Positions 1-36,304 of a stretch of DNA of 36,304 nucleotides are shown in pieces; position 1 is the first letter of the stretch; each line of letters begins with the position of its first letter. The notes under the pieces are model-generated. The model worked only from the letters and a program-made list of their open reading frames with translations, was not told the origin of the DNA and made no database searches. A program made the position numbers and the translations under genes. The stretch is from positions 1 to 36,304 of the IMG/VR virus record IMGVR_UViG_3300024513_000043. One strand, given 5' to 3'. This DNA is from a virus.

Positions 1-121
1 TACCTTGCCCGCCACCACCGCCACCGCCACCCGCAACCACAAGGTAGTCCACAGAAGATACGCCAGTAGGTGCTACCCACTTGCCAGAGCCTTTGAATGT
101 GAAGACGGATTGTGTGGGTGC
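1..121. repeat. 121-bp exact repeat, copy 1 (assembly junction)
   Basis: These bases are identical to 35362-35482; the two diverge at base 122 (g here, t at 35483). They encode the linker between the two glycine-rich domains of the adhesin. The 121-base length equals that of the other end repeat, which is typical of a de Bruijn k-mer overlap rather than a biological terminal repeat. Confidence 0.9.
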
Positions 122-1003
122 GTTGTATTTAAGGATGACGATACCGGAGCCGCCTGTGCCACCGGTTCCGTTTGTTGCGCCACCACCACCACCACCTGTA
201 TTTGTAGTGCCGCCAGTAGCATTTCCACCACCAGAGCCTGCGCCACCACCCCCAGCGCCACCGGAGCCAGCGGTCCCGCCGTTGTATGTGGAACCGCCAC
301 CACCTCCGGAATAAGTCACGGACGGCCCAGATATGGAAGATGCTGTTCCAGCGCCTCCGTTACCTCCACCATCTGTCCGACCATTTGCTCCAACAGCGGA
401 AGCGCCACCACCACCACCACCGCCAAAATTTGGTCCTCCAGATAACGCATTACCACCGTTGTTTCCTTGACCTGATGTTCCGGGACCACCAGTGCTGGGG
501 GCTTGGCCTGCACTACCACCACCACCAGAGCCAAAAGGCCCGCTAGTTGGCGCAGCCGCAAATCTACTTGCACCTCCCCCGCCACCATTTGATGTTATGG
601 TAGAGAAAACAGAATTTCCTCCTGTCCCACCAGCAACAGAGTCTGTTCCGGCAGTGCCGCCACCCCCGACAGTTATTGTGTAATCTGTCCCTGCGGTTAC
701 TGACAAGCCAGTACCAGTTTTGAATCCACCAGCACCGCCGCCACCACCACCAGAATTAACACCGGATGGCCCACCACCACCGCCTGCGCCACCACCAACA
801 ACCAAATACTCCACCTCGGTCACACCTGTAGGACAAGTCCATGTGCTAGTGGCCGTGAAGGTTTGGACGACGGTGTATTGGGTCTGGGGCCAATTGCCGC
901 CACGAACCGCTTTTTGCAATTCGGTCAGCGACCAAATGCCCTTCGCCGAGGATGAGGTTGGATTATTGGCGACCCCAATAACGCCACCATTCCAGCGGGT
1001 CAT
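1..1003 (-). CDS. Glycine-rich tail adhesin, variant B (3' end off the contig)
   Basis: The ATG at 1003 overlaps the stop of the upstream gene (TAATG). The frame stays open to base 2 and is cut by the contig end. The N-terminal ~60 residues (MTRWNGGVIGVANN..., then KAVRGGNWPQTQ) look like a conserved virion-attachment part. A domain beginning PTGVTEVEYLVV follows, made of polyglycine runs separated by variable loops, with the framework NSVFSTITSNGG, then GTASSISGPSVTY, and ending GSGIVILKY. A linker (QSVFTFKGSGKW) opens a second domain. Because bases 1-121 equal 35362-35482 in the same frame, the protein continues at 35361-34700, giving about 554 residues. Glycine-rich domains of this kind are common in phage tail fibres, and Gp38-type adhesins bind receptors with similar loops. 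Receptor binding is inferred. Confidence 0.82.
   Translation of the reverse strand, partial: MTRWNGGVIGVANNPTSSSAKGIWSLTELQKAVRGGNWPQTQYTVVQTFTATSTWTCPTGVTEVEYLVVGGGAGGGGGPSGVNSGGGGGGAGGFKTGTGLSVTAGTDYTITVGGGGTAGTDSVAGGTGGNSVFSTITSNGGGGGASRFAAAPTSGPFGSGGGGSAGQAPSTGGPGTSGQGNNGGNALSGGPNFGGGGGGGASAVGANGRTDGGGNGGAGTASSISGPSVTYSGGGGGSTYNGGTAGSGGAGGGGAGSGGGNATGGTTNTGGGGGGATNGTGGTGGSGIVILKYNAPTQSVFTFKGSGKWVAPTGVSSVDYLVVAGGGGGGGGQG
122..795 (-). other. Variable segment B of the adhesin (first Gly-rich domain)
   Basis: This 674-base stretch is bounded by the two 121-base repeats and is the alternative to 35483-36183 (701 bases). The length difference is 27 bases, nine codons, and both versions keep the frame. 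Loops unique to B include SRFAAAPTSGPFGSG and GQAPSTGGPGTSGQG, while framework blocks (YTITVG, NSVFSTITSNGG, SVTY, GSGIVILKY) are shared. Confidence 0.85.
796..916. repeat. 121-bp exact repeat, copy 1 of the right-end overlap
   Basis: Identical to the last 121 bases of the window (36184-36304). It encodes the conserved N-terminal part of the adhesin just before the first Gly-rich domain. It shows that the sequence after 36304 is 917 onward, closing the genome into a circle of about 35,388 bp. Confidence 0.9.
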
Positions 1004-1377
1004 TAGGAAATCTCCTCATAGCTGCATACCACCTTGAGGTCGCTCGCGGCACTAGCAATTGCGCCTAGAGACTTATCTTCTTCCAAATAAATACTTGAGG
1101 ATTTGTCAATGACCACTAGTGAGGCATCTGCGGGTACAACCACCGTTTTGCAGATTTCCGTGGCCGTGCCACCGAGAGACGCTGCGGAATAGTAGTTAAT
1201 GGTGATGTCGGCGTTATTTGTGCCATCCACATTGGACACAATCAGCGAGTTCACTTTGAACACTTTACCGCTTGACGCGGCGTTGCTGATGATGGATGTT
1301 GCTGCCGTCGTGGTGAGGTCGGCCACTGCCGTTTTGCCGGTAATGGTTGAGACATTGACGATATTAGGGGCTGCCAT
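1003..1377 (-). CDS. Small conserved virion-associated protein, 124 aa
   Basis: Begins MAAPNIVNVSTITGKT and is Ser/Thr/Ala-rich with predicted beta strands; it has no signal peptide or membrane segment. The ATG at 1377 follows a strong Shine-Dalgarno (AAAGGAGA, about 6 nt away). Proteins of this type are found in many aquatic phages beside tail-fibre genes, with no established function. It lies between the repeat fibre and the glycine-rich adhesin, and its stop overlaps the adhesin start by one base, so coupled translation and a role in tail-tip decoration or assembly are plausible but inferred. Confidence 0.7.
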   Translation of the reverse strand: MAAPNIVNVSTITGKTAVADLTTTAATSIISNAASSGKVFKVNSLIVSNVDGTNNADITINYYSAASLGGTATEICKTVVVPADASLVVIDKSSSIYLEEDKSLGAIASAASDLKVVCSYEEIS

Positions 1378-17938: not shown

Positions 17939-18091
17939 TTATATCTCCGTTAAATTAAACTGAGCAACCACTAACTTGTCTGCATTTGATTGTGCTGCGC
18001 GGTATTTTTCTGCTGCTGCCTTGTGGACAAAGATTGCTCCGTCCACAGGAGACTTATCGTGCTTGTAGACCACTACCCAGCGCTTAAACAC
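17939..18091 (-). CDS. Small hypothetical protein, 50 aa
   Basis: Reads from GTG at 18091 (after the initiator: FKRWVVVYKHDKSPVDGAIF, ending VVAQFNLTEI), with AGAAGG upstream and an 8-base overlap with the methyltransferase stop. A longer frame to 18220 would overlap the methyltransferase and looks like shadow sequence. It lies one base from the terminase small subunit gene, so it may be an accessory of packaging or of modification. I do not recognise the family. Confidence 0.5.
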   Translation of the reverse strand: MFKRWVVVYKHDKSPVDGAIFVHKAAAEKYRAAQSNADKLVVAQFNLTEI

Positions 18092-19280
18092 GTTCAGCCT
18101 TCTGTCCGGTGAATTCTTCCCATCGTTTGACAATGACGTCGCAGTATTTTGGGTCAAGTTCCATAAGCCGAGCCACACGTCCGTTTTTCTCCGCTGCGAT
18201 AAGGGTAGAGCCAGAGCCACCGAACAAGTCTAAGACTATATCCGCGCCCTTAGTGTTGTTGAGCAACTGGTACTCAATCAACTCCACCGGTTTCATGGTT
18301 GGGTGAAGTTCGCTTTTGGATGGACGCTTAAAATTTAAAACTGTCACTTGTTTTCGGTCAGACGCCCAAAGATGCCCCGCTCCGTCTTTCCACCCGTAAA
18401 GGCAAGGTTCGTGCTTCCAATGGTAGTCAGAGCGGCCAAATGCTGAATTATCCTTATTCCATATAAGCGTTTGTCTAATTTTCCATCCGGTGTCTATACA
18501 AGCACCACGGAAATTGTACCCCTCGGAATCAGCGTGCCAAATATAAAAAACTGCGCCTTGTTTCATGACTGCATTTGCTGAAACAAACGCGTCCCGCAAA
18601 AATTGCCGGAACTGGTCATCGGCCATTGAATCGTTTTTAATCTGTTCCCATTTTTTTGTGCCACCCTCATAGGCAATGTTGTACGGCGGGTCGGTAATTA
18701 GAATATCGGCCAATCCATCATCCATCAGCTTCTCCACCGCGTCTATGCTGGTAGAGTCGCCGCACATCAACCTGTGCCGTCCAAGTTTGTAGATGTCTCC
18801 GGGCTTGGTCACCGGTTCTTCTGGAACCTCTGGAACCTCGTCCTCGTCCGTCAGCCCCTCGGTTTCTTTGATGGGGTTCAGCAGGGCATTGAGTTCGTCA
18901 GCCTCAAATCCTAGTAAGGACAAGTCAAAGGATTCCGCGTCTAGTTCTTGCAGCTCGACCGTGAGCATCTGGTCATCCCACCCGGCGTTCAACGCCAAGC
19001 GGTTATCCGCTATCACGTAGGCTTTGCGCTGGGTGTCCGATAGGTGAGCCAGCCGGATACACGGGACGGCCTGTAAGCCTAATTTCTGGGCGGCCATGAC
19101 CCTGCCGTGGCCAGCAATGATGCCGTTGTCCTCGTCAATTAAGACGGGATTGTTAAAGCCAAATTCTTTGATGCTCCCGGCAATCTGCGCGACCTGGGCC
19201 TCGCTGTGCGTGCGGGAGTTCTTTGCGTAGGGAATCAATCCCTTGGTTTCAAGCCATTCAACTGTTTTTGCGCCCTGCAT
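18084..19280 (-). CDS. ParB-domain DNA adenine/cytosine-N4 methyltransferase, 398 aa
   Basis: Residues 10-95 are a ParB/Srx-like domain (IKEFGFNNPVLIDEDNGIIA, then GHGRVMAAQKLGL). Residues 160-395 are a beta-class amino-methyltransferase: catalytic DPPY at 197-200, then the S-adenosylmethionine motif LDLFGGSGSTL at 350-360, with target recognition between. It probably methylates adenine N6 (or cytosine N4) in phage DNA, protecting it from restriction or marking it for packaging. The ATG at 19280 has GAGGA five bases upstream. The same ParB-methyltransferase fusion is widespread in phages. No cognate restriction gene is seen. Confidence 0.88.
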   Translation of the reverse strand: MQGAKTVEWLETKGLIPYAKNSRTHSEAQVAQIAGSIKEFGFNNPVLIDEDNGIIAGHGRVMAAQKLGLQAVPCIRLAHLSDTQRKAYVIADNRLALNAGWDDQMLTVELQELDAESFDLSLLGFEADELNALLNPIKETEGLTDEDEVPEVPEEPVTKPGDIYKLGRHRLMCGDSTSIDAVEKLMDDGLADILITDPPYNIAYEGGTKKWEQIKNDSMADDQFRQFLRDAFVSANAVMKQGAVFYIWHADSEGYNFRGACIDTGWKIRQTLIWNKDNSAFGRSDYHWKHEPCLYGWKDGAGHLWASDRKQVTVLNFKRPSKSELHPTMKPVELIEYQLLNNTKGADIVLDLFGGSGSTLIAAEKNGRVARLMELDPKYCDVIVKRWEEFTGQKAERV

Positions 19281-22887: not shown

Positions 22888-23436
22888 TCAAGCAGCGAGT
22901 TCGGACTTGCGCTTGTCTTTCGCTGCATTAACCAGTGCGAGTGCATCTGGCATACGCTGTAATGCGGCAAAGGCTGACTTGAACGACGTTTTGAGTTCCT
23001 CGACATTTTTACTCTCCTCAATTTGTTTGACATAGTTGGTTGCGTCTACTGCATCGCCTTCGGGTAAATCTTCCCCGGCGTAGATGTAAAGCCCAAGCCC
23101 GTGCATGGCAATACATTTAGCAAGGCAACGCATGATGGCCGTGTTGACCTGAAAAGCGTCTGGGTTTGGTATGGCCTTGTTCCGATGGTCAAGCACCGGA
23201 AGCTGGCAGCAGAGTGTCTTATCGAACATGGACACCTCCACAAACACCATCGCTGTGTCGCCAATCTTGCAGTAAGGCTGGTCGTAATTTGGGCCAAACA
23301 TCTTGACCTGCCATTCGGCTTTGGGGTCGGCTTTGATGGCTTCTTGCCATGCCCATGCCCACGACAAATACGTCAGGCCGTTTTTCTTTTCCGTGTGGTC
23401 ATTGACATTGACCTTTAGTAATTCTAACGGACTCAT
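22888..23436 (-). CDS. Single-strand annealing protein (Sak3 / DUF1071), 182 aa
   Basis: Promotes annealing of homologous single strands during recombination. The opening NGLTYLSWAWAWQEAIKADP, followed by PYCKIGDTAMVFVEVSMFDK and HRNKAIPNPDAFQVNTAIMR with CLAKCIAMHGLGLYIYAGED, is characteristic of DUF1071/Sak3, a phage relative of the Rad52-like annealing proteins. C-terminal helices are charged. TAATG overlap with the previous gene. It would pair with the exonuclease at 28055-28651. Confidence 0.85.
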   Translation of the reverse strand: MSPLELLKVNVNDHTEKKNGLTYLSWAWAWQEAIKADPKAEWQVKMFGPNYDQPYCKIGDTAMVFVEVSMFDKTLCCQLPVLDHRNKAIPNPDAFQVNTAIMRCLAKCIAMHGLGLYIYAGEDLPEGDAVDATNYVKQIEESKNVEELKTSFKSAFAALQRMPDALALVNAAKDKRKSELAA

Positions 23437-25240: not shown

Positions 25241-25613
25241 CTTTGATGCGTTCTGGAAGGCGTACCCGAAAAAAGTAGCAAAGGCCGATGCCCGCAAAGC
25301 ATGGGTGCAAACCAAAGATGTACGGCCAGACATTACAACTGTCCTCAACGCGATTACAGCGAATTGCAAAACCGAAAGCTGGATGAAAAATGGCGGGACG
25401 TTTATTCCCTATCCCGCCACCTGGTTGCGCGGTGAGCGTTGGGACGATGAGTTGGAAGTCAAACTCCCGGATGTGGTCAACGAAAAGCCGTGGCACGAAA
25501 CGGCCAGCGGCATAGAAGCCAAGGGCAAAGAGTTGGGGATGTCGCCCGACCAGTTCCCATCCTTCCCCCACTTTAAGACAGCGGTCATGCGTGCTGCGAT
25601 GAAGGCCGCGTGA
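25233..25613 (+). CDS. DnaD/replication-organiser-like protein, 126 aa
   Basis: Start is TTG at 25233 after GAGGAG, overlapping the nuclease stop by eight bases. The opening DDFDAFWKAYPKKVAKADAR followed by KAWVQTK is a well-known module at the C-terminus of phage replication proteins (DnaD-like/helicase loaders), here as a stand-alone protein. It is followed by GGTFIPYPATWLRGERWDDE. It probably recruits the host replisome to the phage origin. No helicase motif is visible. Confidence 0.72.
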   Translation: MDDFDAFWKAYPKKVAKADARKAWVQTKDVRPDITTVLNAITANCKTESWMKNGGTFIPYPATWLRGERWDDELEVKLPDVVNEKPWHETASGIEAKGKELGMSPDQFPSFPHFKTAVMRAAMKAA

Positions 25614-26425
25614 ATCCATTTCTAATCACAGATAACACAGCCATCAGTTTCTCCGGTGGTAGAACGTCAGCATATCTTCTACGCAAGGTTTTAGACGCTA
25701 ATAATGGGCTTCCAGAGTGCTCCAGAGTATTGTTTTGCAATACAGGGAAAGAGGATGAAGCAACTCTTAAATTTATTCATGCCGTTGAAACGAAATGGAA
25801 TGTGCCAATCACATGGCTAGAATACGTTGCTCCGTCTGAGTTCAAGGTTGTGACTTATGAAACTGCGTCTAGGAATGGCGAGCCGTTTGAATCTATTATT
25901 CGCCATCGCAAAATGCTTCCAAATACTAGGGCGAGGTTCTGCACAGTAGAACTAAAAATTAGAACCATGCGGCGATATTTGCAAAGTCTTGGCTGGGAAG
26001 AATGGGACAATATGATTGGCATACGTGGTGATGAGCAACGTCGGGCCGCAAAAATGAAGCCGGACTGTAAGCAAGAAACGCCGGTAATGCCTTTGCACGA
26101 GGCCGGGATACAAAAATCAGAAGTCTTGCAATTTTGGGCAAACAATGACTTTGACTTGGAATTGCCAATTATCAATGGGGAAACCATTGGCGGGAATTGT
26201 GATTTATGCTTTTTAAAATCTTTGCCAAAAATAATGACGTTAGTGGCTCAGAAGCCGGAACGAACAATTTGGTGGGCAAAACAAGAGGATTGGGCGCAAA
26301 CTCAGACCAGCGGAGATGCAAATAGATTTCGTATTGACCGACCACGCTATGCAGATATTCATAATTTTATAGACCGGCAAGGCGATATGTTTGATGATTC
26401 CATTGAGTGTTTTTGCGGGGACTAA
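25610..26425 (+). CDS. PAPS-reductase-family PP-loop protein, 271 aa
   Basis: GTG start at 25610 overlapping the previous stop (GTGA). The PP-loop is AISFSGGRTSAYLL (residues 11-24), followed by RVLFCNTGKEDEATLKFIHA. Later come RARFCTVELKIRTMRRYLQS, MIGIRGDEQRRAAKMKP and two Cys knots, GGNCDLCFLKS and ECFCGD at the end, which can bind an Fe-S cluster or zinc. The family uses adenylated substrates; in phages it may be a nucleotide-modifying or sulfur-transfer enzyme. GC is clearly lower than in the flanking genes, suggesting recent transfer. Confidence 0.85.
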   Translation: MNPFLITDNTAISFSGGRTSAYLLRKVLDANNGLPECSRVLFCNTGKEDEATLKFIHAVETKWNVPITWLEYVAPSEFKVVTYETASRNGEPFESIIRHRKMLPNTRARFCTVELKIRTMRRYLQSLGWEEWDNMIGIRGDEQRRAAKMKPDCKQETPVMPLHEAGIQKSEVLQFWANNDFDLELPIINGETIGGNCDLCFLKSLPKIMTLVAQKPERTIWWAKQEDWAQTQTSGDANRFRIDRPRYADIHNFIDRQGDMFDDSIECFCGD

Positions 26426-26806
26426 ATGATTCTTACCCAATACAACCGAGAAATCGCCGCGCAAATGATTGATGCCGCCCCGGATGGGTATGTGGTGGAA
26501 GTCCGCCCGGCAAAGCGGTCGCTTGACCAAAACCGGTACTATTGGGCCATTCTTACGGACATCTCTGAGCAGGTCGTAGTCGGCAAGGATTACGAGCCAA
26601 GCATCTGGCACGAATACCTACGAGCGTTGTTCTTGCCAGAACGCATGATTGAGTTGCCGGATGGCAGCATGAAAATGTTGGAACCCAGCACGGCAGAGTT
26701 GCGGAAAGACGAGTTCTCGGAATACTTAGAGAAGGTCATCAAGTTTGCGCTCGAGCACGGTGTGCAATTCTCAGAAAACACACGGAGGTTAGGTGACCAA
26801 AGATGA
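26426..26806 (+). CDS. NinB-family recombination protein, 126 aa
   Basis: Starts MILTQYNREIAAQMIDAAPD; residues 27-48 carry the NinB signature PAKRSLDQNRYYWAILTDIS, followed by WHEYLRALFLPERMIELPDG. In lambda NinB (Orf) binds SSB-coated single-stranded DNA and helps recombinase loading. It follows the PAPS-reductase gene immediately and overlaps the Ref-like gene by 14 bases. It fits with SSB-like, annealing and exonuclease genes elsewhere in the window. Confidence 0.88.
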   Translation: MILTQYNREIAAQMIDAAPDGYVVEVRPAKRSLDQNRYYWAILTDISEQVVVGKDYEPSIWHEYLRALFLPERMIELPDGSMKMLEPSTAELRKDEFSEYLEKVIKFALEHGVQFSENTRRLGDQR

Positions 26807-27748: not shown

Positions 27749-28086
27749 AAAACTGGGGGTGGTGGTGTGCGTTTGGGCATCTTGGCCCAGAAGTCCGTAC
27801 CCAATGCGCCAGCGCCGAGGGAAACTATGAATCCGAAGATGTATTCGAGGGCGAGGAACCCCGGGTCGAGCCGGATATGCTGGACGGGGAAGCGGTAGAA
27901 AATGCCGTTCGCCATCTTCCAGAATTATCTCGCCGAGTTCTCAAATACCGTTATATAATGTTCCCGTACCACTTGCAGCACACGGTGGCACAAAAACTAA
28001 AAATGTCTACGGACAGGCTTGAAACGGAATTGACTGTCGCCAAGAGGAGGCTACATGACAGACTTCAACGAGCAGGGCAGCAATGA
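27727..28086 (+). CDS. Q-like antiterminator / sigma-region-4-like regulator, 119 aa
   Basis: Starts MVSEERLKNWGWWCAFGHLG, an opening like that of phage Q/DUF1133 regulators. Residues 60-115 form an all-helical DNA-binding part: AVRHLPELSRRVLKYRYIMF, then TVAQKLKMSTDRLETELTVA, a sigma-4-type helix-turn-helix. It probably acts on late transcription, either as antiterminator or as activator of the late promoter. It overlaps the glycosyltransferase by 22 bases and the exonuclease by 32. Confidence 0.7.
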   Translation: MVSEERLKNWGWWCAFGHLGPEVRTQCASAEGNYESEDVFEGEEPRVEPDMLDGEAVENAVRHLPELSRRVLKYRYIMFPYHLQHTVAQKLKMSTDRLETELTVAKRRLHDRLQRAGQQ

Positions 28087-28651
28087 ATGGTTCGCGGCTC
28101 GACTAGGGCACGTAACCGGCAGTAGAGTATCGGACGCACTCGCCAAGGAAGGAACCGCCACACGGGAAAACTACCTGTGGCAACTGGTCGCCGAACGGTT
28201 GACCGGGCAACCCCAGGATTCCTTCACTCCCAATGCCGCGATGATTCGCGGAACCGAACAGGAACCCATCTCACGGGCCGCATACGAGGCGCACACGGGC
28301 ACGTTTGTGGAGCAGACGGGCTTTGTCCACCACCCGACCATGAAATGGTTTGGAGCCTCTCCCGATGGCTTGATTGGCACGGACGGAGTGTTAGAACTTA
28401 AGAACCCCAACACGGCCACGCATTTGGCGTACAGGAAGGCCGGACAACCACCGGCCAAGTATCGGTATCAGATGATGGCGCAAATCGCCTGTACGGGCAG
28501 AAAATGGGCCGATTTCGTCAGCTTTGACTCCCGGCTTCCCGAGTCCAAACAATTGTTCGTGGTGCGATTTGAGCCCGAGCAGAAAGAGATGGATGAGATG
28601 CTGGAAAAAATACAGAAGTTCCTTGACGCCGTGGCAAAGGAATGTGAATGA
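28055..28651 (+). CDS. YqaJ/lambda-type alkaline exonuclease, 198 aa
   Basis: 5'-3' exonuclease that produces single strands for annealing. The ATG at 28055 has AGGAGG upstream. SNEWFAARLGHVTGSRVSDA opens the fold; RGTEQEPISRAAYE supplies E70; the catalytic core FGASPDGLIGTDGVLELKNP gives D104, E114 and K116 (PD-(D/E)XK). This architecture is typical of the YqaJ viral recombinase family. It pairs with the annealing protein at 22888-23436. Confidence 0.9.
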   Translation: MTDFNEQGSNEWFAARLGHVTGSRVSDALAKEGTATRENYLWQLVAERLTGQPQDSFTPNAAMIRGTEQEPISRAAYEAHTGTFVEQTGFVHHPTMKWFGASPDGLIGTDGVLELKNPNTATHLAYRKAGQPPAKYRYQMMAQIACTGRKWADFVSFDSRLPESKQLFVVRFEPEQKEMDEMLEKIQKFLDAVAKECE

Positions 28652-31866: not shown

Positions 31867-32808
31867 CTATACTTTCTCTCCCCGAAAGTAAGCCGCCCCG
31901 TTGATGACTTCGCATAGTTCAGGAGGCAGTAACATACCATCCTTAAATGTCAGGACAGCGAATCCCGAACACCAGTTCACAGGATTGCCCTCACAGTATG
32001 TAAATTGCTCGCCATAGGGCTCCGCTAACGTCCCGGTGTCCACCCCATAACGACGCCCATTGTAATCAGAATACGGAGTGACTTGGAGTTTGTGCAGGTG
32101 GCCGGTCACAATCGTCTTTCCGGCCTTCAAGGTGTTGTTGTAGGGTGCGTGAACCCCGTTGTGCCAGCGATGCTTCACAATCACTTGCTCGTTGATGTCC
32201 ACCCTCCAGCCGGTATGCCAGCCAGGGAAGTAATCAAACAAATCCATGGCGTCCGAAAGTTCAGGTGCGTTGACCGCAATATAGCGATGCAGTCGAACGT
32301 CATGGTTTCCAAATGTCCACAAGCAACGTGCGTTCTTGGAGGCGTTGCGAATCTCGTCTAAGCGGTCTTGACAGGCTTCTATCTCTTGCTTGGGGGTAGG
32401 AGGGGTTGTGCCCATCAGCGGCTCGTGGCGGCTGATTCTGGCCCCGTCAAAGACGTCCCCGTTGAGGATGATGGTCTTGGGCTTAAATTCTTTCAGGAGG
32501 TCTACAAACGCCCGATGCGCGGTGGTGACTTCCCCTGGCCAGTAGTGGCAGTCGGAAGCGATAAAAACGTGCCCGTTCTCAACGGTGTGCTCTAGGATGC
32601 GGCGGTTATCAGGAATGATGGTCTTTAGGACAGATTCCTGCTTGGCATTGAATGACGGAAGGACAATCCCGTACTTTTCTTGGATTTTACTTCTGCGCCG
32701 GTAAATGTTGACTTGGTCAACTTGGAATTCTTCTGCAACGGCTTTAGGACTTCCCAGGCGCTTGAACGCCTCGATGATTTGCTCATCCGTCAGTTTTCGG
32801 CTTGCCAC
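31867..32808 (-). CDS. Metallophosphoesterase with N-terminal HTH, 313 aa
   Basis: Calcineurin-like fold with D86 and H88 (ASDCHYW), NGDVFDG at 116-122, TFGNHD at 165-170, H213 (KHRWH) and GHLH at 236-239: the full metal-binding set. The first ~45 residues, RKLTDEQIIEAFKRLGSPKA then EEFQVDQVNIYRRRS, form a helix-turn-helix, an unusual DNA-binding addition. Substrates could be nucleotides, nucleic acid or phosphoprotein. GTG start; overlaps the HslV-like gene by 26 bases. Confidence 0.85.
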   Translation of the reverse strand: MASRKLTDEQIIEAFKRLGSPKAVAEEFQVDQVNIYRRRSKIQEKYGIVLPSFNAKQESVLKTIIPDNRRILEHTVENGHVFIASDCHYWPGEVTTAHRAFVDLLKEFKPKTIILNGDVFDGARISRHEPLMGTTPPTPKQEIEACQDRLDEIRNASKNARCLWTFGNHDVRLHRYIAVNAPELSDAMDLFDYFPGWHTGWRVDINEQVIVKHRWHNGVHAPYNNTLKAGKTIVTGHLHKLQVTPYSDYNGRRYGVDTGTLAEPYGEQFTYCEGNPVNWCSGFAVLTFKDGMLLPPELCEVINGAAYFRGEKV

Positions 32809-33229
32809 GACTTCTCCTCGGTAATCTCAGAACATCTATTGGCTCATGGGAGCTGGTGTCATACATACAGGCAATTTTTACCGCTTCCACCGGAGATAAT
32901 CCCAAGTGCATGGCGGCGATTGCGTAGTTTGCTCCTGTTCCAATAGCCCAAAAGTCGTTCTTGATACGCGCAGGGATGATGGTACTTTCGTAAATCCAAA
33001 TGCCATCACTTCTGAGTTCAAGAACCGTCACATCGGTGTCAGAGTCCAGGTCACCACCCTTCTCCAACGCCTGATAGAACTTTAATATCTTATCCCAATC
33101 TCCGCAAGCCCCATAAACAGAGGCTTTTCCTTGACGAAGTTTCTCTACGAGGTAGAAGGAATCGTCGCCGCTCACCATACTATCTGCGGCGATTTCTCCC
33201 GTAGATACTTTGGCGGCCACCGTGGTCAT
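32783..33229 (-). CDS. HslV/proteasome-beta-like Ntn-hydrolase, 148 aa
   Basis: Starts MTTVAAKVSTGEIAADSMVS. The first Thr (T2) is exposed after Met removal, as in HslV and proteasome beta; D16 and K30 are at the right spacing for the other two active-site residues. AIGTGANYAIAAMHLGLSPV, EAVKIACMYD and then SSHEPIDVL match the typical HslV C-terminal part. No HslU-like ATPase gene lies in this window, so it may use the host unfoldase or act alone. ATGA overlap with the next gene. Confidence 0.82.
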   Translation of the reverse strand: MTTVAAKVSTGEIAADSMVSGDDSFYLVEKLRQGKASVYGACGDWDKILKFYQALEKGGDLDSDTDVTVLELRSDGIWIYESTIIPARIKNDFWAIGTGANYAIAAMHLGLSPVEAVKIACMYDTSSHEPIDVLRLPRRSRGKPKTDG

Positions 33230-33459
33230 TTGTCGGCTTTAGTCTCTAGTCGGTCAAAGATGCGCTCAAGGATGTTCTCTAGCCGGTCAAAGCGAACTTC
33301 GATGTCCACTTTCTTGACGTAGTTGGAAGGCAGGTCAACTTCAATTTGATGGACGTCCCGGCGCAACTCTGCTACGGAGTCCCAAATCTGGCGGGCAAAC
33401 CATCCAATCCCTGCCAACGCTGAACCGCCGATAAGGTTAATGATGGTCTGCCATTCCAT
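33226..33459 (-). CDS. Small single-pass membrane protein, holin candidate, 77 aa
   Basis: Starts MEWQTIINLIGGSALAGIGW followed by FARQIWDSVAELRRDVHQIE and a charged helix ending ILERIFDRLETKADK. One N-terminal membrane segment and a long charged C-terminus is common for small phage membrane proteins annotated as holin-like or holin-accessory. It overlaps its neighbours by 1-4 bases. Function inferred from topology and place. Confidence 0.6.
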   Translation of the reverse strand: MEWQTIINLIGGSALAGIGWFARQIWDSVAELRRDVHQIEVDLPSNYVKKVDIEVRFDRLENILERIFDRLETKADK

Positions 33460-33818
33460 TATGCGGCCTCAACCCAGCTTGTCGTGGCCTCGTCCCATGA
33501 ATACATCTTGCCGTCGGTCGGCATCGGGGTTGGCGCTTGCCATTGGCAGGTGAGCTCGTTCAGCACCCAGCTTGCAAACGGTTTAGGCGGCACAAACGCA
33601 TCGCGGTCGGAATCGTATTTGAACCCGATTCCAGCGTAGTTCTTGCGGAAGTTGCCGTTATAGCTGGTCTGCTTCCATGTGCCACCGAACAGGCGCTCAC
33701 AGAAAGCCGCACCGATGCTTTCTTTTTCGACACCACCGGCATCGGATGTGTCCTTGTTATCGACCACAATCACCTGGGTGACGTAGCCATACTGGTCAAT
33801 TTTAGCGAAATGCGCCAT
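33459..33818 (-). CDS. Conserved phage virion-type protein, 119 aa
   Basis: Begins MAHFAKIDQYGYVTQVIVVD and continues AFCERLFGGTWKQTSYNGNF, RKNYAGIGFKYDSDRDAFVP and PKPFASWVLNE, a pattern that recurs in very many aquatic myo- and podoviruses; it is often detected as a structural protein, but the role is not known. No signal or membrane part. It is between the 2OG oxygenase and the membrane protein genes. Confidence 0.72.
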   Translation of the reverse strand: MAHFAKIDQYGYVTQVIVVDNKDTSDAGGVEKESIGAAFCERLFGGTWKQTSYNGNFRKNYAGIGFKYDSDRDAFVPPKPFASWVLNELTCQWQAPTPMPTDGKMYSWDEATTSWVEAA

Positions 33819-34422
33819 CGAGTTCTCCTAATTGAAGTCCGGTTAAATCTAATTCCTCCCCGATATTTCCAACGGGGAAAGTGTTAAATGCAAGGCTGAT
33901 GCGGGTTTGGTCAGATTCTACGGTCTGCACCATGTGGGTCAGGCTTGACGGGAACAGCACTAAGTCGCACGTTCCCACCTCGAACCACCACGATTCCGAG
34001 TTCCAGACATTCCATTCCGCAGGTGGAAACTTAATCTGCTGGTATCCATTGCGGAAGAAGTAAATCCGGTCCTTGGCTTTATCGGCCTGAACATAGAACA
34101 CCCCGGACACAAACGAATTGGGGTGCTCGTGCTTATGGTGATACTGACCAGGCTCGGTGTAATTGGTCCACGACTGCGTAATCTTGAGGTTGACCTTGTG
34201 CTTGGGGCTGTAAACCGTGGTGAAGTATTCCGACACCTTGGTTTCAATAAAGTCCCGCAACTGGGTCAATTCTTTAGACTTAAGAATCGTGTTGTTGGTG
34301 CTGGTCGTGTTGCCCGTGTTTGACCGTGTTTCCTGATTCTTTAGGAACGATAGTTCCTTGGCCGACAGGTCACGGTCTAACTTATACATACCCACAGGTG
34401 TGGGAAACAGGTTATGCAGCAC
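33802..34422 (-). CDS. 2OG-Fe(II) oxygenase-like protein, 206 aa
   Basis: I chose GTG at 34422 (VLHNLFPTPVGMYKL), six bases after GAGGA; an ATG at 34443 lacks a proper site. The Fe-binding region is EPGQYHHKHEHPNSFVSGVF, with LVLFPSSLTHMVQTVESDQT then RISLAFN containing the distal His and the 2OG-binding Arg. It resembles the TIGR02466 family of putative oxygenases widespread in marine phages. It may hydroxylate a virion or host protein. The gene is immediately after the adhesin and its helper. Confidence 0.8.
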   Translation of the reverse strand: MLHNLFPTPVGMYKLDRDLSAKELSFLKNQETRSNTGNTTSTNNTILKSKELTQLRDFIETKVSEYFTTVYSPKHKVNLKITQSWTNYTEPGQYHHKHEHPNSFVSGVFYVQADKAKDRIYFFRNGYQQIKFPPAEWNVWNSESWWFEVGTCDLVLFPSSLTHMVQTVESDQTRISLAFNTFPVGNIGEELDLTGLQLGELDGAFR

Positions 34423-34690
34423 GTTGTTCCTCAATGATTGCATCCACCTGTTTCTGAATTTCCATCTGACCCGTTAATTGTTCAATCTGCTCTGGCAACC
34501 AAATCGTGTTGATGGAATCCTCAAACGCTTTAATCTTTTCCATTGTGTCTTGAACCTCTTGCCAAGTAGGGCAGGGCCGAGGGTCTTCCCAACGGGAAAA
34601 ATAAGTGTTTGAGATTTCCCACTTTGCACCCGGTCTTAGCAAGTGCATTGCGGTGTCGATTCCATACAACCGATAGATTTTGGTTTCCAT
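34412..34690 (-). CDS. Small protein next to the adhesin, possible assembly helper, 92 aa
   Basis: ATG at 34690, with GAGGA upstream, nine bases after the adhesin stop. It reads METKIYRLYGIDTAMHLLRP then SNTYFSRWEDPRPCPTWQEV and continues as a helix (MEKIKAFEDSINTIWLPEQI). Similar proteins sit near tail fibres of many phages and may help folding. This is inference from location; no catalytic features are visible. Confidence 0.6.
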   Translation of the reverse strand: METKIYRLYGIDTAMHLLRPGAKWEISNTYFSRWEDPRPCPTWQEVQDTMEKIKAFEDSINTIWLPEQIEQLTGQMEIQKQVDAIIEEQRAA

Positions 34691-34699
34691 TTGTCCTCG

Positions 34700-36304
34700 T
34701 TATTGATTGGTCTTGATGATGACGATACCTGAACCACCGGCAAATGACTGATTTGCGCTTCCAGCTATACCACCACCACCCCCACCAGTATTTGAGCCAC
34801 CAGCGGTTCCTGTTCCAGTAGCACCACCGCTGCCATTTCCGTTACCGCCACCGCCAGTTCCTCCGGTTCCTGCCGCACCAGAAAAGAAAGCACCGCCACC
34901 GCCGCCGCCAGCATAGGTTACAGAAGTTCCTGTAATTGAAGATGCGGTTCCGTTACCACCATTTCCAGACGCTGTTCCAGTAGCACCAGCCGCAGACGCA
35001 CCACCGCCTCCACCGCCTCTAATTTGTGATGGAGAATTTGCTAGTGACGCACCGCCGTTGTTGCCTTGAGATGGCGAAGTAGATGGAGTGTTTCCAGTCC
35101 CACCACCGTATGAAGCGTTTCCAACTTCACCACCACCACCACCAGAACCTCCATTTGCCCCAGTAGCAGGGGCAGAACCGCCACCCCCACCGCCACCGCC
35201 ATTAGAAGTGATGGTAGAGAAAACAGAGTTTCCTCCGGTTCCACCAACAGCGTTTGTTGAAGCGGAACCACCAGCTCCAACTGTAACCGTGTATTCCGTA
35301 TTAGCAGTAACACTAAAACTTGTGCCAGTTCTAAAACCACCAGCACCACCTCCACCGCCAGTACCTTGCCCGCCACCACCGCCACCGCCACCCGCAACCA
35401 CAAGGTAGTCCACAGAAGATACGCCAGTAGGTGCTACCCACTTGCCAGAGCCTTTGAATGTGAAGACGGATTGTGTGGGTGCTTGGTATTTAAGGATGAC
35501 AATACCGGAGCCGCCTGCTTTGCCTCTTGTATTGTTATATGAAGCACCGCCACCACCGCCAGTATTTGTACCTCCAGCAATGCCATCAACGGCGGCAGTT
35601 GCTCCTGTGCCACCACCACCTGTTCCACCTGTTCCGCCTGTTCCCGTATTAGTGCTACCACCGCCACCACCAGCGTAAGTTACAGACGAGCCACTAATTG
35701 TAGACGCAGTTCCTGCGCCACCAGCACCCCCAACATCTAAAGCACCAGACGCTCCAATTGTTCCATTTCCACCAACTGCGTTAGCTCCGCCACCACCTCC
35801 AGATGCCAAATCAGCACCTGACCTTAAAGCCCCAGTTCCAGCATTATTCCCTTGAGAAGGAGAGGTATTAGGTGTGTTGCCAGAACCTGCAGTGCCAAGT
35901 GTTGTTACTGCGGTATTACATCCACTACTTCCACCAGAGCCGCCGTTTCGCCCATTTTGTAATGAATCTGAATATGCCCCACCACCACCACCACCATTAG
36001 AAGTAATGGTAGAAAATACAGAATTACTTCCATCACTGCCCTGCGCTCCTCCACTTGTATTGGCGTTACCGCCAGCGCCAACTGTAATGGTGTAATCTGT
36101 TCCGGCAGTTACAGACGCACCTGTTCCTGTTCTAAAACCGCCTGCTCCACCAGCACCGAGACCACCACCACCACCGCCACCAGCAACAACCAAATACTCC
36201 ACCTCGGTCACACCTGTAGGACAAGTCCATGTGCTAGTGGCCGTGAAGGTTTGGACGACGGTGTATTGGGTCTGGGGCCAATTGCCGCCACGAACCGCTT
36301 TTTG
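34700..36304 (-). CDS. Glycine-rich tail adhesin, variant A (5' end beyond window)
   Basis: The frame is open from the window end (36304) to the stop at 34700; a GTG at 36211 is only an internal Val codon. Joined through the repeat to the ATG at 1003, the full protein is about 563 residues. Domain 1 (from ~residue 58) is variant A with loops such as YSDSLQNGRNGGSGG, SGCNTAVTTLGTAG and NTPNTSPSQGNNAG; domain 2 (from FTFKGSGKWVAPTGVSSVDY) is unique and has the same framework, ending SGIVIIKTNQ. This is a two-domain receptor-binding-type protein; the receptor is unknown. Confidence 0.85.
   Translation of the reverse strand, partial: QKAVRGGNWPQTQYTVVQTFTATSTWTCPTGVTEVEYLVVAGGGGGGGLGAGGAGGFRTGTGASVTAGTDYTITVGAGGNANTSGGAQGSDGSNSVFSTITSNGGGGGGAYSDSLQNGRNGGSGGSSGCNTAVTTLGTAGSGNTPNTSPSQGNNAGTGALRSGADLASGGGGGANAVGGNGTIGASGALDVGGAGGAGTASTISGSSVTYAGGGGGSTNTGTGGTGGTGGGGTGATAAVDGIAGGTNTGGGGGASYNNTRGKAGGSGIVILKYQAPTQSVFTFKGSGKWVAPTGVSSVDYLVVAGGGGGGGGQGTGGGGGAGGFRTGTSFSVTANTEYTVTVGAGGSASTNAVGGTGGNSVFSTITSNGGGGGGGGSAPATGANGGSGGGGGEVGNASYGGGTGNTPSTSPSQGNNGGASLANSPSQIRGGGGGGASAAGATGTASGNGGNGTASSITGTSVTYAGGGGGGAFFSGAAGTGGTGGGGNGNGSGGATGTGTAGGSNTGGGGGGIAGSANQSFAGGSGIVIIKTNQ
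35362..35482. repeat. 121-bp exact repeat, copy 2
   Basis: Identical to 1-121; encodes the inter-domain linker (QSVFTFKGSGKW then VAPTGV). The two copies diverge immediately after 35482. It defines the left border of the alternative segments on the plus strand. Confidence 0.9.
35483..36183 (-). other. Variable segment A of the adhesin (first Gly-rich domain)
   Basis: A 701-base stretch that is the alternative to 122-795. Shares framework blocks with it but differs in nearly all loop residues, and it has nine more codons. Confidence 0.85.
36184..36304. repeat. 121-bp exact repeat, copy 2 of the right-end overlap
   Basis: Identical to 796-916. It shows that the window end joins the conserved adhesin N-terminus, closing the genome. 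Confidence 0.9.

Follow-up and report, generated by a model that had tools for sequence, protein, structure and literature searches.

Diverged versions of host-recognition genes are known to coexist on near-identical phage backbones, as metaviromic islands or flexible genes, and this coexistence breaks assemblies (PMC3909814, PMC7468147). Receptor-binding proteins with comparable architectures have been described elsewhere, including gp38, the receptor-binding tip of T-even phages (PMC12892980), and the Pam3 tail fibre gp24, which combines a TNF-like sandwich with a glycine-rich tip and a variable distal end; the tip of the corresponding domain has been proposed to bind receptors (PMC9608196). 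Here we analyse a 36,304-nucleotide viral stretch (IMG/VR record IMGVR_UViG_3300024513_000043, positions 1–36,304; hereafter the window), whose sequence captures a probable receptor-binding domain in two versions within a single phage population. As an instance of metaviromic-island or flexible-gene variation the event is of a known kind, and the locus provides a clear new example of it. It most probably represents one backbone with two paths through the first domain of an adhesin, in which old alleles are exchanged as whole-domain cassettes at conserved seams.

Two domain paths on one circular backbone

The ends of the window are linked by two pairs of exact 121-bp repeats, X and Y, neither of which can be extended inwards (Table 1). 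Together they account for 194 of 194 repeated 25-mers, and no other repeat of at least 25 bp was found in the window. Between them lie two alternative segments that differ in length by 27 bp, or 9 codons. The contig thus has the form X-altA-Y-backbone-X-altB-Y, with X and Y of one fixed length and both window ends falling within one gene. Such a layout is what a de Bruijn assembler would be expected to emit when a bubble in a circular graph is left unpopped, and 121 would then be the assembler's k-mer size. We favour interpreting the window as an assembly bubble, cut open, on an SU10-like phage whose genome of approximately 35.4 kb assembles as a circle: both ends are exact 121-mers common to one backbone, and G046, an independent phage contig, is closed by a 127-bp repeat located in the corresponding stretch of the same gene.

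A previous sequence-only reading had reported both repeats, the sizes of the two segments and their common frame and framework with differing loops, all of which our counts bear out; its graph of one backbone and two paths is supported by the exact 121-mer ends and the G046 closure. Its circle of about 35,388 bp holds for allele B, and the circle with allele A is 35,361 bp. The identical flank visible beside allele B measures 121 bp on each side, beyond which we infer its backbone. Another metagenome yielded a contig (L200, IMGVR_UViG_3300026459_000225) that is 99.98% identical to the window, with one mismatch in 5,565 bp. It is the same phage in a second metagenome and independently confirms the backbone and domain 2; it begins at 35317, inside domain 2, and so also stops within the adhesin gene.

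Table 1 Positions of the adhesin, repeats, seams and neighbouring or recombination genes in the window
Feature	Position	Strand	Remarks
Adhesin part 1, allele A	2..1003	-	N-terminus, seam 1, Gly-rich domain 1 (A), linker; continues at 35361 downwards
Adhesin, allele B domain 1, single-copy Gly-rich domain 2 and C-terminus	34700..36304	-	Open frame
Domain 1 core, allele A	122..795	-	674 bp, divergent between exact repeats
Domain 1 core, allele B	35483..36183	-	701 bp, divergent between exact repeats; dS to A 1.39
Shared 121-mer X, copy 1	1..121	.	Linker and start of domain 2; exact repeat of 35362-35482
Shared 121-mer X, copy 2	35362..35482	.	Exact repeat of 1-121
Shared 121-mer Y, copy 1	796..916	.	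Lead-in strands of domain 1; exact repeat of 36184-36304
Shared 121-mer Y, copy 2	36184..36304	.	Exact repeat of 796-916
Seam (candidate handle) 1	794..895	-	aa 37-70 of allele A; synonymous mismatch obs/exp 0.75 (55 phages)
Seam (candidate handle) 2 and linker	29..172	-	About aa 278-325 of allele A; domain 1 exit strand, domain 2 lead strand
Seam (candidate handle) 3	34700..34756	-	C-terminal exit strand, aa 537 to end of allele A; obs/exp 0.75
124-aa gene adjoining adhesin	1003..1377	-	66%-identical DSL-LC04 relative annotated putative lectin; control gene
92-aa gene downstream of adhesin	34412..34690	-	Conserved partner; PHROG 21526
2OG-Fe(II) oxygenase	33802..34443	-	Same cassette; PF13759, phrog_81; order as in DSL-LC04
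Sak-type single-strand annealing protein	22888..23436	-	PF06378, E 2.4e-44
NinB recombination protein	26426..26806	+	PF05772, E 3.8e-17
YqaJ/RecE-like exonuclease	28055..28651	+	PF09588, E 5.2e-29

The two alleles are strongly diverged. They share 137 of 215 aligned residues (64% amino-acid identity) across an alignment with 27 gap columns, 79 of the 137 identical residues use different codons, and 63 of 102 four-fold sites differ (dS about 1.39, dN 0.32); on either side, the sequences match exactly for at least 121 bp. Such a pattern means that the segment was replaced by an old homologue, a recent mutational origin being excluded. Domain 2, the paralogous tandem domain, is equally distant from A and from B, and this distance matches that between the alleles; alleles as diverged as the gene's own two domains do not fit recent hypermutation or a diversity-generating retroelement. 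Of 496 pairs of family members, 19% are closer to each other in domain 1 than A is to B, so that the two alleles look unexceptional for the family. Their relationship is that of old homologues, swapped as a domain cassette, rather than of products of recent diversification in place. The earlier description of the domain as hypervariable, which suggests fast local mutation, needs refining on this point. We rejected an origin of domain 1 by gene conversion from domain 2, given that A and B are equally far from domain 2. As for a donor of allele B, no close cassette was found, the best segments being partial and 64–73% identical, and exact 23–27-base patterns from both alleles and both anchors retrieved no other viral_contigs record.

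The adhesin gene and its neighbourhood

The split adhesin gene is encoded on the minus strand, starting at 1003, running off the start of the window and resuming at 35361 down to 34700. Joined through either path it remains open with no internal stops, giving a protein of about 555 aa with allele A or about 564 aa with allele B, in which a short N-terminus is followed by two glycine-rich PF21722 domains. Matches to this family (Gly_rich_2 phage adhesin) have E values of 6.3e-52 for 34700..36304 and 2.4e-25 for 2..1003, and the scores of 177.3 and 90.3 bits exceed the curated cut-off of 24.3. AlphaFold models had a mean pLDDT of 86.7 for allele B with domain 2 and 78.3 for allele A, the domains being confidently predicted. 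Both models matched the Bxb1 tail tip and the Pam3 tail fibre in the PDB. The Pam3 fibre (7ypx) was the best PDB match for allele B with domain 2 (E 4.5e-4), and allele A matched the Bxb1 tail tip and the Pam3 fibre at E about 1e-6 (3.5e-6 for 7ypx); the 7ypx fold match had a probability of 1.00 and a TM by target of 0.48. Many aquatic phage proteins also match the allele B model. No S16 or PP01 gp38 entry appeared among the PDB fold or sequence matches.

The surrounding genes are those of a tailed phage of SU10 type, with portal and major capsid proteins, a terminase, structural genes, an endolysin and a Sak/NinB/YqaJ recombination set, and the adhesin lies among the tail genes, as would be expected of a Gly_rich_2 adhesin. 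The portal is 61% identical to those of freshwater-spring phages and 50% identical to that of the Methylophilales phage Venkman. The order putative lectin, adhesin, 92–95-aa protein and 2OG-Fe(II) oxygenase is common to phage DSL-LC04, which has a genome of 61.5 kb, and the conserved order (window 33459-34690 and 1003-2304) also takes in a 119-aa protein. Judging from the domain, the fold and these neighbours, cell or receptor binding is the probable function of the adhesin domain, and a role in modifying the fibre or host surface is possible for the adjoining oxygenase.

Several further features of the genome were recorded. The adhesin cores (34763-36183 and 122-795) have a GC3 of 0.24–0.33, compared with 0.50–0.76 in nine backbone genes, which could reflect either glycine-codon choice or a shared pool of different origin. 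A ParB-like N-terminal domain is fused to an N6/N4 DNA methylase at 18084-19280, and this 35-kb phage also encodes a PAPS-reductase-like protein (25610-26425) and an HslV-like peptidase (32783-33229). Scans of the window for tRNAs and Rfam families returned no matches.

Domain swaps and conserved seams in related phages

Comparable replacements of whole domains, with conserved flanks, were seen directly among related IMG/VR phages from many samples. In most of the full-length relatives retrieved, the gene is of similar length and encodes two domains. Contig L042 is 98.5–98.7% identical to L188 and L085 over about 3 kb upstream, drops to 60% in domain 1 and returns to 82–94% in domain 2 and the C-terminus (domain 2, 82%). 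Both cores differ in the pair L087 and L035 (55–57%), which share 90.5% upstream and 99.1% downstream. The otherwise different phages L059 and L135 have 95% identity in domain 1 and 52% in domain 2. Domain 1 is likewise kept and domain 2 differs in L014/L015, L205/L207 and L246/L247, and the reverse holds for L237/L241 and L237/L258 (domain 2 about 0.9, domain 1 0.6). Across 55 phages, similarity between phages in the neighbouring 124-aa gene was tracked by that in the N-terminus (Mantel r 0.69), seam 1 (0.55) and seam 2 (0.60), but hardly by that in the cores (0.19 and 0.09), whose correlations are lowered by near-saturated divergence. Similarity of the cores is nearly decoupled from that of the backbone. 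In two relatives (G045:C1:15825-21195 and G050:C1:6906-15935), about five to eight glycine-rich units are arrayed over several reading frames, an arrangement that suggests duplication of the same cassette.

The divergence between A and B sets in at seams 1 and 2. Synonymous conservation was assessed at identical residues only, by setting the observed codon mismatch against that predicted from the codon usage of the gene in question. Observed-to-expected mismatch was 0.74 in seam 2 (aa 278-306) and 0.85 in the linker (aa 307-325), similar to or somewhat above the values for seams 1 and 3 (Table 1), compared with 0.89 in the neighbour gene and N-terminus and 0.93 in the cores. Bootstrap intervals over phages for the seams did not overlap those of the neighbour gene; for the half of phage pairs that are most distant, the seams stood at 0.80–0.85 and the neighbour gene at 0.99. 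The seams are also among the most conserved parts of the protein, encoding strands at the base of each domain.

Contig ends fall in the same places. Within such genes, 16 of 33 ends lay in seam zones making up 23% of the gene (P 0.0015), zones that were chosen after the first ends had been inspected. Contigs that enter the gene tend to terminate close to a seam's end, and those that leave it tend to start close to a seam's beginning. The 127-bp terminal repeat of the 35.5-kb contig G046 is exactly seam 2 plus the linker (translation GGSGIVILKY...EVEYLVVA), and the ends of G007 flank the same stretch, one on each side. Among contigs of at least 12 kb, ends within 2 kb of the two sides of the 124-aa gene numbered 10 versus 2, an excess that serves as support only, as glycine-codon repeats could also break assemblies, and that is bettered by the seam-zone mapping.

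These patterns raise the tentative idea, to which we give a little less than even weight, that the seams are kept as handles for recombination, being short tracts conserved at the nucleotide level and common to otherwise diverged aquatic phages, through which a joint pool of adhesin domains can pass from one phage species to another. No description of nucleotide-conserved seams in PF21722 adhesins was found in a small literature search. Conservation might instead reflect a DNA, RNA or codon constraint at the domain boundary with no repeated exchange, which we regard as a doubtful but serious alternative. Its appeal lies in the position of the seams, in the strands at each domain's base and the most conserved parts of the protein; the test, however, was restricted to identical residues and set against each gene's own codon use, and swaps with breakpoints near seams are seen directly. 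The two ideas can both hold, and codon or RNA constraint could partly account for the conservation.

Alternative explanations and relation to known systems

How the two versions came to stand in one contig can be read in other ways. Allele B might belong to a different co-occurring phage that shares at least 121 identical bases at both seams, the assembler having joined the two. The seams are indeed the gene's most conserved DNA across distant phages, and L059 and L135 have a 95%-identical domain-1 cassette in common; yet exact 121-bp identity would be needed on both sides, and the nearest relatives found match the seam-1 region in short pieces only, at about 90–92%. We consider this origin unlikely, and if the cassette had recently been transferred together with both seams, the process would be no different from the exchange proposed here. 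A single genome holding both versions, whether domain 1 was duplicated in tandem or a linear genome carries terminal duplications, is very improbable: despite the glycine-rich arrays of G045 and G050, the X-to-Y junction that tandem copies require is absent, linear ends lying within a coding gene and cut to one fixed length on both sides are unlikely, and two-domain genes of similar length predominate among the full-length relatives. Variation in place, by a diversity-generating retroelement, a phase-variable inversion or hypermutation, is scarcely credible. Variable loops on a fixed framework do resemble the products of such systems, but retroelements leave adenine-directed nonsynonymous changes and no synonymous divergence, whereas here the synonymous sites are saturated and indels are many. 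The genes scanned included no member of a reverse transcriptase or invertase family, and neither a template repeat nor a second template copy was detected in the window.

Under the preferred reading of one backbone and two exchanged alleles, at least two old and diverged versions of the first adhesin domain would coexist in the sampled population, carried by genomes that are otherwise nearly identical. Whole-domain cassettes would be swapped by homologous recombination at the conserved seams, the beta strands leading into and out of each glycine-rich core, during co-infection and probably through the phage's own exonuclease and annealing proteins. The core would display variable loops that contact the host surface, and exchange would then probably change binding; variation in host surfaces may maintain several alleles. 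In another phage, Melnitz, tail-region variants had identical host ranges on a small panel (PMC9004378).

The comparisons also show such domains passing from one aquatic phage to another at positions that recur. Should the seams prove to be true exchange handles, swaps could be predicted from sequence, many broken viral contigs would be explained and the size of a shared adhesin pool would be measurable. A further lesson is that adhesin genes of this kind are lost or wrongly joined in viral catalogues.

Like metaviromic islands (Mizuno 2014, PMC3909814; Bellas 2020, PMC7468147), the locus combines diverged homologous versions with a near-identical backbone, the flank of allele B being seen for 121 bp on each side. 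Unlike those cases, it holds both versions in one contig, a whole glycine-rich domain is exchanged and the seams are mapped to the nucleotide. It resembles T-even gp38 adhesins (S16, PP01; PMC12892980) in setting hypervariable loops on a glycine-rich framework; in gp38, however, variable regions are flanked by glycine-rich motifs, whereas here synonymous sites are saturated in the glycine-rich cores themselves, and it is beta strands at the base of the domain that form the conserved seams. The Pam3 tail fibre gp24 (7YPX; PMC9608196), which ranks first or second among the PDB matches of each allele, contains a single domain of this type and a helical shaft, in contrast to the two tandem domains and different N-terminus found here. 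The ongoing shuffling of domains between phages also recalls the recently emerged domain mosaicism of receptor-binding proteins (PMC10684548), but that work compares families broadly, whereas here the exchange would take place within one population and at conserved seams.
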